64,000 nt of DNA from Xylaria sp. FL1777 (taxonomy: Eukaryota > Ascomycota > Sordariomycetes > Xylariales > Xylariaceae), in NCBI GenBank assembly GCA_022578965.1, contig MU400517.1, positions 372,001 through 436,000 on the forward strand, in the 5' to 3' direction. Below, piece after piece: positions 42,507 to 49,817 of this stretch. The position numbers and the translations under genes were made by a program. The notes under the pieces were generated by a model, which was not told where the DNA came from, made no database searches, and saw only the letters and a list, made by a program, of their open reading frames with translations. How positions within the stretch are numbered: the stretch's first letter is position 1; every line of letters begins with the position of its first letter.

Positions 42507-44390
42507 ATGACCTTGGTCTCTACCTCGGCCATGTCGTCGCCGCATAAGCCCCGGCGCAAGACGAAAAAGACAGCTCACTTCGACGTCGACGTCAAGCCTG
42601 AAGCTCTCGTCCGATCTCCCGCCTTTCCTCTGGAAGCCATCCTGTGGCCCGCGCGGTCGTCCCTCTCGCAATGGGAAGTCCTACCGCTGGTTCTCATGGC
42701 CGTTGGCCTCTTCCGCTGGGCTGCCGGCTTATGGGGATATTCGGGTTCGTACAATGTCTCTATTTCGAACAATGCCCCTGTCTCTCTGTCTCTCTGTCTC
42801 TCGCCGTTGTCGCGCGCTGACGCTGACGCTCGCCTTCTAGGTCTCCATAAACCTCCCATGTTTGGCGACTACGAGGCCCAAAGACACTGGATGGAAATAA
42901 CTACGCAGCTACCCATCTCGCAATGGTACTTCCACGACCTGCAATGGTGGGGGCTCGATTATCCTCCTCTCACGGCGTACCACAGCTGGCTGCTCGGTCA
43001 CGTCGGCTCCTTCATCGATCCCTCGTGGTTCGCTCTCTACACGTCGCGAGGCTCGGACGATCCCACGCTGAAAATCTTCATGAGAGCCTCGGTTTTCGTC
43101 TCTGAATATCTGATTTACATCCCGGCCGTCGTTGTCTTTACTCGAAGGTACAGCCAGCTTTTCGGCGTGACGCAATGGCCTGCCTCGCTTGCGCTTGTCG
43201 CTATTCTCATGCAGCCGGGCACCATCCTCATCGATCATGTCCACTTTCAGTACAATACTGTGATGCTCGGCTTTGTAGTTGCTAGTATGTCCAGCATGCT
43301 GGCTAACCGGTACATGTGGGCGTCCATCTTTTTTGTTGCCGCACTTGGTTTCAAGCAGATGGCCTTGTATTACGCTCCCGCTGTCTTTGCCTTCTTATTG
43401 GGTAACAGTTTTTTCCCTGAAGCCCATTTCCCGCGGTTTTTTGGCATTGCTGCCGTGACCATAGCGTCTTTCGCGATTTTGGTTCTTCCATTTGTTCTAG
43501 GTGCCCTCCATGATGCGAGCAGGGGTATTGCCGCCCAACCCGACCTTGAAGGCTATCACGCGCCGCTTCCTATTTTCACCTTTCTTTCCCCCTACCTTGA
43601 CACGTCTGCTACCTACTATCCCGTCGTCGAGCAGATTGTTCAGATGATACACCGAGTCTTCCCCTTTGCCCGAGGCTTATTCGAGGACAAGGTTGCCAAT
43701 TTCTGGTGTGCGGCGAATCTAGTTATCAAACTACGTGCCTATCCTGCTGAACTTCTTCAAAGAGCTTCTCTACTGATGACGCTCATTTCAATTTCACCAC
43801 CCTGCATCATGCTTCTCTCCAGACCCCATAAAGAACTTTTACCTTATGCTTTTGCCGCAACAGCATGGGGCTTCTTCCTCTTCAGCTACCAGGTCCATGA
43901 GAAAAGCGTTCTGCTCCCGCTTCTCCCCATGACTCTCCTTCTTGCTGGCAAGCAAGGCTTGGGTAAAGAAGTCAGATCATGGGTGGGATTCGCAAATATT
44001 CTCGGAGCGTGGACGATGTTTCCACTGCTTCAGCGGGTCGATCTGCGGGTCCCCTATGCCGTACTTACGCTCCTTTGGGCATACTTGCTAGGCCTACCGC
44101 CCACTTCCTTGAGTGCGTATTTCCAAAAAGGCCAGAATACTGCAGTTCAATGGGCGACACTTCTAATCCATGGTCTCTTCTATTTCGCCATGGCTGCTTG
44201 GCACGTTGCGGAACGGACTATAACACCCCCTTTCGATAAACCAGATCTCTGGGTTGTTGCCAACGTTGGCGTAGGTTTCGCTGGGTTTGCCCTCTGCTAC
44301 GTGTGGTGCCTATGGAAACTGGCTCAGGAATGCGGCCTCATACCTGTTTCGCTCTTAGGGGCCAGCAAGCACAAGATTAAGACCAAATAA
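42507..44390 (+). CDS. alg6: ALG6 dolichyl-P-Glc:Man9GlcNAc2-PP-dolichol glucosyltransferase
   Basis: Two exons, 42507-42744 and 42841-44390, give 595 aa. The intron (donor GTTCGT, acceptor TTCTAG) is 96 nt, a multiple of three and free of stops, so an unspliced reading stays open; splicing restores WGYSGLHKPPMFGDYEAQRH. Motifs of the ALG6/ALG8 family are FGDYEAQRHWMEIT, DLQWWGLDYPPLTAYHSW, LIDHVHFQYNTVMLG, FKQMALYYAPAVFAFL and SYQVHEKSVLLPLLP. The remainder is about a dozen hydrophobic segments. The enzyme adds the first glucose to the lipid-linked oligosaccharide in the ER lumen during N-glycan assembly. A second ATG at 42531 is an alternative start. Confidence 0.95.
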   Translation: MTLVSTSAMSSPHKPRRKTKKTAHFDVDVKPEALVRSPAFPLEAILWPARSSLSQWEVLPLVLMAVGLFRWAAGLWGYSGSYNVSISNNAPVSLSLCLSPLSRADADARLLGLHKPPMFGDYEAQRHWMEITTQLPISQWYFHDLQWWGLDYPPLTAYHSWLLGHVGSFIDPSWFALYTSRGSDDPTLKIFMRASVFVSEYLIYIPAVVVFTRRYSQLFGVTQWPASLALVAILMQPGTILIDHVHFQYNTVMLGFVVASMSSMLANRYMWASIFFVAALGFKQMALYYAPAVFAFLLGNSFFPEAHFPRFFGIAAVTIASFAILVLPFVLGALHDASRGIAAQPDLEGYHAPLPIFTFLSPYLDTSATYYPVVEQIVQMIHRVFPFARGLFEDKVANFWCAANLVIKLRAYPAELLQRASLLMTLISISPPCIMLLSRPHKELLPYAFAATAWGFFLFSYQVHEKSVLLPLLPMTLLLAGKQGLGKEVRSWVGFANILGAWTMFPLLQRVDLRVPYAVLTLLWAYLLGLPPTSLSAYFQKGQNTAVQWATLLIHGLFYFAMAAWHVAERTITPPFDKPDLWVVANVGVGFAGFALCYVWCLWKLAQECGLIPVSLLGASKHKIKTK

Positions 44391-47644: not shown

Positions 47645-47772
47645 TCCTCGGTGGCGCAATTGGCTAGCGCGTCGTAAGTTGTCTTAGATAAAAAATCAAA
47701 TCCAATAGAATTCTAATGATAATATAGTGACTGTTAATCAGGAGGTTGAAAGTTCGAGCCTTTCCCGGGGAG
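47645..47772 (+). tRNA. tRNA-Asn(GUU), copy 1, split by an mRNA-type intron in the anticodon stem
   Basis: Exons 47645-47673 (29 nt) and 47728-47772 (45 nt) join into a 74-nt cloverleaf. The acceptor stem is TCCTCGG with CCGGGGA, the D stem GCGC/GCGC with loop AATTGGCTA, the anticodon arm TCTGA-CTGTTAA-TCAGG, the variable loop AGGTT, and the T arm GAAAG-TTCGAGC-CTTTC; the discriminator is G, as eukaryotic AsnRS expects. Anticodon GTT is at 47733-47735. The A box (TGGCGCAATTGG) and B box (AGTTCGAGCCT) are intact. The 54-bp intron separates nt 28 from nt 29, not nt 37/38. The identity of all exon bases with the two neighbouring copies argues for function. Confidence 0.92.
47674..47727 (+). other. 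spliceosomal-type intron inside tRNA-Asn copy 1
   Basis: 54 bp. Donor GTAAGT, branch-like CTAAT at 47713-47717, acceptor ATATAG with 10 nt from branch motif to intron end. Apart from these signals it shares no sequence with the other two introns. Confidence 0.85.
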
Positions 47773-48720
47773 CTTCATATTTTTTCTCCTCATCTCCCCC
47801 TTTTATTTTGCCTCGTTTTGTGGCGGGATATCACATCATTCCTGATGGTTATGCCTTGGTGGAGGAGGCATCATGATCTTCCTAATAGGTGCAGGCGTAT
47901 AGGCCGGTTAGGATCGGTATGTAAAACCGCTTGTTGTCATTAACACCGCTCCTCTACACTATTAGAGACGTTGGATCGCAAGGCTTATTACCGCTTTGCT
48001 AGATCGAAGTCAATCAGAGTCCTAGAAATAGGATCAGATGCTGGATCCAATATTAGGACTCTATTAGATTTGCAATCCGTAGAACCACAATTAGAGTGCT
48101 GGAATCATGGGGTTCTACCGTATATGGCATTGAACACACAAGATTGCAGATACGACATCCATCGACTGTGATCAGGACAGATCTCGCAGTCTTGTAATAA
48201 AACCTATCTAAGAGCACACACACTAGCACCCTCTCATAGATGTATCATCAATTCTGAAATTGCTGATGCGCTGGTTTCAGTCTTTCTGAAGCTAGGGGTT
48301 GTGGTGCACTTGCTGTCGTTGTTTATACTACCTCATAAACTTTGACAGTCATTCTTATAGATGAATTGGTGATCGTAAAGAGGGACTCTGCCTTTTCACA
48401 GTCAGGAGTAGGAATCGTTGTCTACTCAGATCTGTACAATATATAGTAGGGCATCTGTTCTGCCTGTAATATGAGCGGTGGCAATAGGGGAAGCTTGACC
48501 CTGATCTTACAATACAGTCACGCTTGCGCTTTATGGCTTTAGCTTTCAGTTCTCTCAGAATCGGAGACTTTAGTAGTGCCGTAAGGTGAGTAGGAGGGAT
48601 CACAACGGCGTGGTAGAAGAGGCCACGCATCATGTGTGAGGGACTGGAGGGGTAGCGGGGTAGCGGGGTAGACGTTGTATATGGTAGTATCTAAGCCGAT
48701 GGTTAACAACCAACCGGTTG
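47773..48720. other. spacer between tRNA copies 1 and 2
   Basis: No gene supported. Flanks of the two tRNA genes are not similar to each other, so the copies are not part of a recent larger duplication. Confidence 0.55.
47780..47785 (+). terminator. Pol III T-run after tRNA-Asn copy 1
   Basis: Six T residues begin 8 nt after the discriminator base. Confidence 0.8.
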
Positions 48721-48851
48721 TCCTCGGTGGCGCAATTGGCTAGCGCGTCGTAAGTGGTACCTTGCATAGATGAGACGCACGACGTTGTAGTCTGACAATA
48801 TAATAGTGACTGTTAATCAGGAGGTTGAAAGTTCGAGCCTTTCCCGGGGAG
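48721..48851 (+). tRNA. tRNA-Asn(GUU), copy 2, split by an mRNA-type intron in the anticodon stem
   Basis: Exons 48721-48749 and 48807-48851 are identical base for base to copy 1 and fold into the same cloverleaf. Anticodon GTT is at 48812-48814. The 57-bp intron lies at the same place, between nt 28 and 29. Both internal promoter boxes are kept. Confidence 0.92.
48750..48806 (+). other. spliceosomal-type intron inside tRNA-Asn copy 2
   Basis: 57 bp. Donor GTAAGT, branch consensus CTGAC at 48792-48796, acceptor AATAG with 10 nt from branch motif to intron end. Confidence 0.85.
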
Positions 48852-48855
48852 TTTA

Positions 48856-48861
48856 TTTTTT
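48856..48861 (+). terminator. Pol III T-run after tRNA-Asn copy 2
   Basis: Six T residues starting 5 nt after the discriminator base. A second T-run follows at about 48870. Confidence 0.8.
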
Positions 48862-49679
48862 CCCTATAACGTTTTTTTCCCCAGTAGAATAGGGGAGGCT
48901 CGAGCATTCATTTCGGCATTCATTTGATTAGATGGCTAGGTACATAGAAAACTTGAGGAAATATTCGGGCTCCTTATATCCATGGGCTAGACTGGTTTTA
49001 ACAAGAGATGCCATATGAGGTGATGGAAACTGTACTAGCGAATTGATTAGTCTGCAGTAGCATGGGAACGTTATGTCCATCTCTAACTTTCCGACAAAGC
49101 TGGAAGCATTTGGGAGCAATAGAAAAGACGACGTTGCATTTAAATTTGAAGAGTCGTATTACTTGCGGCTTAGCTAATTCTTGATTTATCAACTATTATC
49201 TGCCGGACTTATCGATAACTACTTACTTAGCACGGTTACTACACAGCTCTAGCGCAACTATTGTTCGTAAAATTAGACTAAAGGAGAGGTAGGTCACTCT
49301 TCAATAACGTCTATGCCATAAGAAGCCATGATAGAACCCTAACGTGAAAGCCGTAGGTCCACCATCTGCTGAAAGATGACCTGCGGATATCCTCTACCAG
49401 ACTTTCCTCGCCCGTAATGACGGTCAAGAAAACGCCGGTCTAATTTTTCAGTGAAATTCAGGGGCTCCGCTATCCAAGAAGTAGATCTTAAAACTGAGCC
49501 TTCTAATGCTTGTTTCTTCCTCTCTCAATATTAGCGCCGCCCCCTGTGTAGGACCCGATACCTTAATCAACTATAGCCGAAAATGTCTAAGTTTTTCAAA
49601 CACCATGCTGGCGTTTGTTCGTCGGATAGGCGAAAACATAAACACTACCACTAAACCAGGTGCAAAAAAATAACCATAG

Positions 49680-49684
49680 AAAAA
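49680..49684 (-). terminator. Pol III T-run after tRNA-Asn copy 3
   Basis: On the minus strand five T residues follow the discriminator by 3 nt, with a longer T-run at 49670-49664. Confidence 0.75.
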
Positions 49685-49687
49685 GAA

Positions 49688-49817
49688 CTCCCCGGGAAAG
49701 GCTCGAACTTTCAACCTCCTGATTAACAGTCACTATAATATGTTAGGAGACTAGTCTACATCGGATAATTGTTCAAGGTAAAACTCACGACGCGCTAGCC
49801 AATTGCGCCACCGAGGA
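49688..49817 (-). tRNA. tRNA-Asn(GUU), copy 3 (minus strand), split by an mRNA-type intron in the anticodon stem
   Basis: Exons 49817-49789 and 49732-49688 are again identical to the other copies over all 74 bases. The gene is inverted relative to copies 1 and 2. Its 56-bp intron has a different donor (GTGAGT) and unrelated internal sequence but the same insertion point. Confidence 0.92.
49733..49788 (-). other. spliceosomal-type intron inside tRNA-Asn copy 3
   Basis: 56 bp. Donor GTGAGT, perfect fungal branch CTAAC (49746-49742), acceptor TATAG with 9 nt from branch motif to intron end. Confidence 0.85.

Follow-up and report, generated by a model that had tools for sequence, protein, structure and literature searches.

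Spliceosomal introns are typical of the transcripts of RNA polymerase II (Pol II). They are reportedly also present in U6 small nuclear RNA (snRNA) genes, namely in Schizosaccharomyces pombe and, as Canzler et al. are said to have found in 2016, in many fungi. The usual site of the eukaryotic transfer RNA (tRNA) endonuclease, TSEN, is at 37/38 in the anticodon loop (PMC4090602, PMC13149111), and in a 2026 review tRNA splicing is said to proceed without the spliceosome (PMC13149111). According to a 2017 paper, frequent interruption by introns is known for only two small structured RNAs, U3 small nucleolar RNA (snoRNA) and U6 snRNA (PMC5832005), and the eukaryotic cases of non-canonical tRNA introns given in PMC4090602 are those of nucleomorphs and of the red alga Cyanidioschyzon merolae. 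Here, we describe three tRNA-Asn(GUU) genes interrupted by mRNA-type introns in a stretch of 64,000 nucleotides (nt) of Xylaria sp. FL1777 (contig MU400517.1, positions 372,001 to 436,000, hereafter referred to as the window), together with five further interrupted tRNA genes found elsewhere in the same genome.

The eight nuclear tRNA inserts, located at 28/29, 52/53 and 19/20, are very probably removed by the major spliceosome, as judged from their sequences. The closest described systems each share a part of this arrangement. Fungal U6 introns are alike in that a small structured RNA made by RNA polymerase III (Pol III) carries a spliceosomal-type intron, which is also the case for U6 in this genome; however, the interrupted RNA in the present case is a tRNA, a class served by dedicated splicing enzymes of its own, and three isoacceptors are interrupted at three sites. 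Fungal U3 snoRNA introns likewise interrupt a short structured RNA with GT, RCTRAY and YAG in order, and intron-bearing and intronless paralogues occur in one genome (PMC5832005), whereas the host RNA is not a tRNA. The canonical 37/38 introns, which are present in this genome and include that of one tRNA-Lys(CUU) gene, are nuclear tRNA introns cut by TSEN, but the present inserts lie at 19/20, 28/29 and 52/53 and have splice-signal sequences. The ectopic introns of archaea, C. merolae and nucleomorphs are alike in occupying sites in the D, anticodon and T arms (PMC4090602, PMC3978253); those of archaea and C. merolae are recognised by a bulge-helix-bulge fold, whereas the present introns form none beyond chance and carry GTRAGT, CTRAY and YAG.

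Interrupted tRNA genes and their intron sequences

As shown in Table 1, each tRNA-Asn(GUU) gene in the window consists of exons of 29 and 45 nt, which are identical at 74/74 bases across the three genes. The earlier note on this DNA had claimed this identity, the gene coordinates and insert lengths of 54, 57 and 56 bp, all of which were confirmed to the base; the insert ends that it gave (GTAAGT, GTAAGT and GTGAGT at the start, TAG at the end) and its branch-like boxes CTAAT, CTGAC and CTAAC, 10, 10 and 9 nt before the end, were also found exactly. The cut at 28/29 has no one-base alternative in the sequence, since no shift yields the same product.

Table 1. Positions, in window coordinates, of the interrupted tRNA-Asn(GUU) genes and their associated elements.
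Feature	Position	Strand	Details
tRNA-Asn(GUU) gene 1	47645..47772	+	exons 47645-47673 and 47728-47772; identical to uninterrupted C13:78090-78163; ARAGORN on spliced string: Asn(gtt)
mRNA-type intron, gene 1	47674..47727	+	54 bp at 28/29; GTAAGT; CTAAT (47713-47717) 10 nt before end; TAG
A-box-like internal promoter, gene 1	47652..47663	+	TGGCGCAATTGG; match to gapped A-box/B-box pattern
B-box-like internal promoter, gene 1	47752..47760	+	GTTCGAGCC
T6 run, likely Pol III terminator, gene 1	47780..47785	+	begins 8 nt past gene end
tRNA-Asn(GUU) gene 2	48721..48851	+	exons 48721-48749 and 48807-48851; same as gene 1; ARAGORN on spliced string: Asn(gtt)
mRNA-type intron, gene 2	48750..48806	+	57 bp at 28/29; GTAAGT; CTGAC (48792-48796) 10 nt before end; TAG
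T6 run, likely Pol III terminator, gene 2	48856..48861	+	begins 5 nt past gene end
tRNA-Asn(GUU) gene 3	49688..49817	-	exons 49817-49789 and 49732-49688; same as gene 1; ARAGORN on spliced string: Asn(gtt)
mRNA-type intron, gene 3	49733..49788	-	56 bp at 28/29; GTGAGT; CTAAC (49746-49742) 9 nt before end; TAG
T5 run, likely Pol III terminator, gene 3	49680..49684	-	begins 4 nt past gene end
T7 run after T5, gene 3	49670-49664	-	begins 18 nt past gene end

The finding turned out to be larger than first claimed, with five more genes, two other isoacceptors and two other non-canonical sites. Four tRNA-Lys(CUU) genes (contigs C5, C8, C95 and C107, in the numbering in which the window is C12:372001-436000) are cut at 52/53 in the T stem by inserts of 63, 58, 55 and 60 bp, all of which are different and each of which has the form GTGAGT...CTRAY...TAG. 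A tRNA-Arg(CCU) gene on C18 contains a 66 bp insert of the form GTAAGT...CTAAC...CAG at 19/20 in the D loop, and its first tRNA exon is as short as 18 nt. When the Arg exons are joined, the acceptor stem pairs at 7/7 positions (one G-U), the D stem at 3/4, the anticodon stem at 5/5 and the T stem at 5/5, as determined by hand; the match of the A box is looser in the Arg gene (TAGAGAAATGG). The joined exons would amount to a tRNA of 74 nt for Asn and of 73 nt for Lys and for Arg, and ARAGORN names all eight spliced strings correctly as Asn(gtt), Lys(ctt) or Arg(cct).

All eight inserts (54-66 bp) contain a GTRAGT-type donor, CTRAY and a YAG acceptor, where CTRAY lies 9-13 nt from the acceptor and was scored without the preceding R. 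The fungal branch-site consensus is given as RCTRAY at 6-36 nt from the acceptor (PMC5832005). Thus, in donor, acceptor, branch-site range and exact removal restoring a tRNA, 8/8 inserts correspond to U2-type introns. The combination of GTRAGT, CTRAY 7-15 nt from the end and YAG was found in 4 of 1,022,880 window segments (both strands, eight intron lengths), and three of these four segments are exactly the Asn inserts. In 60 mononucleotide shuffles of the window, 35 of 61,440,000 segments had the combination, corresponding to 5.7e-7 per segment. The grammar of the Asn inserts is not a product of chance. Virtual splicing was applied to 309 kb, consisting of the window and loci picked for tRNA-like matches with overlapping copies counted, and yielded 111 candidate removals that had a B box nearby. 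Of these, 46 result in a tRNA that spans the junction, all from the eight genes, and four of the 46 use an alternative acceptor in two Lys genes; ten further loci gave no candidate.

The exons are 100% identical within the two families (three Asn and four Lys genes), while the Lys intron middles are no more alike than shuffles (0.40-0.48 compared to 0.44-0.49). Because the exons are identical and the intron bodies are at or near background, the three splice signals are, as far as the sequences indicate, what survives where the rest of the introns has largely drifted. This pattern bears on the possibility that the interruptions mark dead gene copies, where an insertion carries no penalty and the tRNAs are supplied by intact genes elsewhere. 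In a review, single tRNA copies of eukaryotes with an insertion in the D or T arm are taken to be pseudogenes (PMC4090602), and intact or canonical-intron counterparts of the Asn and Lys genes exist in this genome, as described below. However, dead genes would be expected to lose their exons, terminators and splice signals, all of which are kept, and the exons remain identical while similarity in the introns and 5' flanks has fallen to background or close to it.

The interrupted genes have the sequence hallmarks of nuclear Pol III tRNA genes, namely an A box, a B box, a T-run terminator and a tRNA fold. A T run of at least 5 follows 8/8 genes, starting 4-8 nt past the gene end for Asn and Arg and 44-47 nt past it for Lys. 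These features are difficult to reconcile with the reading that the loci are parts of Pol II transcripts, such as long non-coding RNAs or RNAs similar to short interspersed elements (SINEs), whose spliced form is merely tRNA-like. That reading would account for introns of a type that is usual in Pol II transcripts, and the conserved tail of the Lys genes could be part of a longer RNA; however, there is little similarity beyond the gene and the tail, the tRNA exons are complete, and the A/B-box-like elements are in place. It is therefore regarded as extremely improbable.

The tail itself is a conserved trailer of approximately 40 nt, observed downstream of all five tRNA-Lys(CUU) genes found and just before the T run. 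Its hairpin stem covaries (CTCCTAG/CTAGGAG, CTCCCAG/CTGGGAG and TTCTCAG/CTGAGAA), and it had no Rfam match in scans of the Lys loci. It may act in processing or stability, or it may be a small RNA transcribed together with the tRNA.

Possible agents of intron removal

In principle, the inserts could be ectopic tRNA introns which TSEN cuts by way of a fold similar to the bulge-helix-bulge, as in C. merolae or archaea. Ectopic introns, some of them in the T and D arms, have been reported from C. merolae, nucleomorphs and archaea (PMC4090602, PMC3978253), and a 4-bp central helix with exon 2 can be formed in the four Lys genes, although this helix follows from their common GTGAGT. The bulge-helix-bulge (3-nt bulge, 4-bp helix, 3-nt bulge) was found in none of the eight genes, and no gene exceeded its shuffled introns at 0.05: the strict 3-4-3 pairing reached 3/10 in Asn and Arg and 5-7/10 in Lys, with the fraction of shuffles at or above the observed value being 0.11-0.91. 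A looser test with free offsets, in which most genes reached up to 4/4 central pairs, was not stringent enough, and the strict test with its shuffled controls was used instead.

The failure to form the fold is weak evidence when taken alone, because four canonical introns of the same genome, used as controls, also reach only 3-7/10 in the better of their topologies (the cut of the Phe control was set by eye and may be off). In addition, many nucleomorph ectopic introns form no defined bulge-helix-bulge (PMC3978253), and thus the motif is no strict test in eukaryotes. The position and the signals are more informative. None of the sites is at 37/38, where a TSEN-type intron lies one base 3' of the anticodon; three genes are cut at 28/29, four at 52/53 and one at 19/20 (numbering by hand). 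TSEN needs none of GTRAGT, CTRAY and YAG, yet 8/8 inserts contain all three. Because the usual eukaryotic site is 37/38 and the three conserved signals are not needed, TSEN is a very improbable agent of removal. As for self-splicing, no Rfam match to a group I or group II intron was obtained in the Asn, Lys or Arg genes, and the inserts are just 54-66 nt long.

A U6 gene of the same genome shows a comparable arrangement. Located on C1, it has a 58-nt spliceosomal-type insert, GTAGGC...GCTAAC...TTATAG, which separates GAAGAT from TAGCATGG in the conserved core. A second U6 gene (C18:120452-120548 and upstream, minus strand) apparently has two inserts when inspected by eye, where the first, GTAAGT...GCTAAC...TTTAG, precedes ACAGAG, and the second, just after ACAGAGAAG, starts with GA, not GT, and ends with CTAACCTCAGATATAG. 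A third U6-like gene (C52:214978-215079) is intronless and divergent in its 5' and 3' parts, with the ACAGAGA core and AGCATGGCCCCTGC kept.

Spliceosomal maturation of the interrupted tRNA-Asn, as proposed in the earlier note, is thus supported by the sequence, to which five further genes with the same grammar, the U6 intron and the lack of any uninterrupted tRNA-Arg(CCU) among the genes found have been added. In the proposed process, Pol III would transcribe each interrupted gene, and the small nuclear ribonucleoproteins would recognise the splice signals within the pre-tRNA. Two transesterifications would then release a lariat and join the exons directly, such that TSEN, the Trl1 ligase and a 2'-phosphate step would not take part in the joining, and RNase P and tRNase Z would afterwards trim the tRNA ends. 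In the Asn and in the Lys family, one intron gain likely preceded gene duplication, after which everything but the splice signals would have drifted. Since canonical 37/38 introns are retained in other tRNA genes of this fungus, two tRNA-splicing routes probably exist side by side.

Uninterrupted and canonical-intron genes in the same genome

The genome comprises 58.7 Mb in 588 contigs, and it is the single genome on which this analysis is based. The genome-wide search for GTT-anticodon tRNAs with and without the insertion, which the earlier note had proposed as a check, was performed with the tRNA 3' half at up to 3 mismatches. Five tRNA-Asn(GUU) genes were found, where three are those in the window and two are uninterrupted: C13:78090-78163 has the same 74 nt, and C66:227716-227789 has one change in the D loop. 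The plentiful intronless tRNA-Asn genes that the earlier note had named as a possible refutation are therefore present in part, as 2/5 of the genes found. On C7 there is a fifth tRNA-Lys(CUU) gene, whose T arm is intact and whose 39-nt intron lies at 37/38. Neither 8 pattern matches, of which four were the interrupted genes and four were not tRNA-like by eye, nor the 7 matches of a second genome search included a tRNA-Lys(CUU) gene free of interruption. For tRNA-Arg(CCU), a DNA search with the spliced sequence (E <= 0.001) gave no second copy. A divergent gene, particularly if it carried a canonical intron, could escape the searches behind these Lys and Arg negatives.

These counts complete the assessment of the dead-copy possibility. 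The two intact tRNA-Asn genes favour it, and so does the tRNA-Lys(CUU) gene that has a canonical intron only. It is weakened most by the fact that no intact tRNA-Arg(CCU) gene was found and that the exons are identical, and it is considered highly unlikely.

Several observations weigh against removal by the spliceosome or against function of the interrupted genes. The two intronless tRNA-Asn genes and the canonical-intron tRNA-Lys(CUU) gene could supply those two functions. The mRNA-intron grammar is modestly enriched in the window, with 12 sites compared to a mean of 3.6 and a maximum of 12 in 100 shuffles, where the 12 sites probably include the three tRNA introns. The Asn intron middles align at 0.49-0.59 compared to 0.46-0.49 in shuffles, and the 5' flanks at 0.50-0.61 compared to 0.48-0.50, and therefore a little shared ancestry is still left outside the exons. 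Avoidance of T runs within the introns was not seen, as T4 occurs in 1/8 introns where 1.26 are expected. The donor of the U6 intron, GTAGGC, is weaker than the GTRAGT of the tRNA introns, and the unspliced Arg gene reaches 24.4 bits with the Rfam tRNA model, for which the cut-off is 29. Finally, the word perfect, which the earlier note applied to the fold of the tRNA-Asn, goes slightly too far: the 74-mer has two wobble pairs, U4-G69 and U27-G43, and its RNAfold minimum, like that of the spliced Arg tRNA, departs from the standard cloverleaf, but the uninterrupted gene of the same sequence obtains 62.3 bits with the Rfam tRNA model. For the spliced Lys tRNA, the minimum given by RNAfold is the standard cloverleaf.

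The set of eight interrupted tRNA genes consists of those found so far, and the inventory is incomplete. A gapped A-box/B-box pattern gave 172 matches in the genome compared to 92 with the reversed control, mostly due to chance, and a second pattern with an intron-sized gap gave 98 compared to 101, from which the four tRNA-Lys(CUU) genes were picked by eye. Three generic patterns of the tRNA 3' half gave 54 matches compared to 16 in the control, 10 compared to 11 and 16 compared to 12; they yielded no further interrupted family besides tRNA-Arg(CCU), where the third pattern was considered by its counts only. Candidates with long inserts for Lys(UUU), Met, Leu, Arg(ACG), Phe, Pro and Val were set aside as having canonical 37/38 introns, by ARAGORN or by eye. 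Further interrupted tRNA genes may exist in the genome, because the Rfam tRNA model was run on 63 of 3048 candidates, the 172 A/B-box matches were covered as far as contig C50, and one 3'-half pattern was covered by its counts.

Two other groups of tRNA-like sequences were observed during these searches. Near-identical stretches resembling a tRNA 3' half occur at C12:503258-503287 and C39:172892-172921 (TGGCAATTTTGAGGTTRACTGTTCGAATCT), and a sequence far upstream of the C12 stretch may be its 5' half. Among the matches listed, C6:188810, C39:204161, C44:21880, C46:62498 and C50:287521 belong to a repeated family of tRNA-like sequences, TGGCCGAGTTGGTNCGG...TTCGA; its middles are variable and repeat-like, and it may be a SINE or else an unusual RNA made by Pol III. 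No match to the interrupted Asn and Lys genes was obtained in viral contigs or prokaryotic genome contigs, as expected for a fungus. The window also encodes an ALG6/ALG8-family protein at 42507-44390, which is 85% identical to its counterpart in Ustulina deusta and 81-83% identical to those in the Xylaria and Rosellinia entries that follow, so that a xylariaceous ascomycete is the likely source.

Detection by tRNA finders and biological meaning

In the window, no tRNA was called by ARAGORN in bacterial mode or by Rfam. With introns allowed, ARAGORN misnames the three Asn genes as Ile(gat), Val(gac) and Val(aac), does not detect two of the Lys genes, misplaces the intron in the other two and misses the Arg gene. 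Rfam misses the three Asn genes, places the Arg gene below the cut-off and detects all four Lys genes. Through this misnaming by ARAGORN, anticodons are likely to be miscounted when genomes are annotated automatically. The search for non-canonical introns in tRNAscan-SE 2.0 is described for archaeal candidates (PMC8450103). The results indicate a blind spot of tRNA finders, and more such genes may lie hidden in other fungal genomes.

The intron type itself is ordinary, with precedents in U6 and U3, whereas a nuclear tRNA as a substrate of the spliceosome is without a described counterpart in the literature searched. Searches of that literature, outside which most subscription journals lie, turned up no nuclear tRNA gene reported to have a spliceosomal intron, and priority is unproven. 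The finding is very surprising because two pathways that are held to be separate are crossed.

If the introns are removed as proposed, the rule that the tRNA endonuclease alone removes nuclear tRNA introns would be broken, and the spliceosome would be able to handle compact pre-tRNAs in which the first tRNA exon is as short as that of tRNA-Arg(CCU). A second route of nuclear tRNA maturation would then exist, and a part of the decoding capacity would depend on the splicing machinery. It is quite likely that this fungus uses two nuclear tRNA-splicing systems at once, with 37/38 introns left to the endonuclease and those of three isoacceptor families to the spliceosome, and that its tRNA supply and its translation of AGG, AAG and AAY codons are thereby coupled to mRNA-splicing capacity, because the sole tRNA-Arg(CCU) gene found, 4/5 of the tRNA-Lys(CUU) genes and 3/5 of the tRNA-Asn genes would need the spliceosome.

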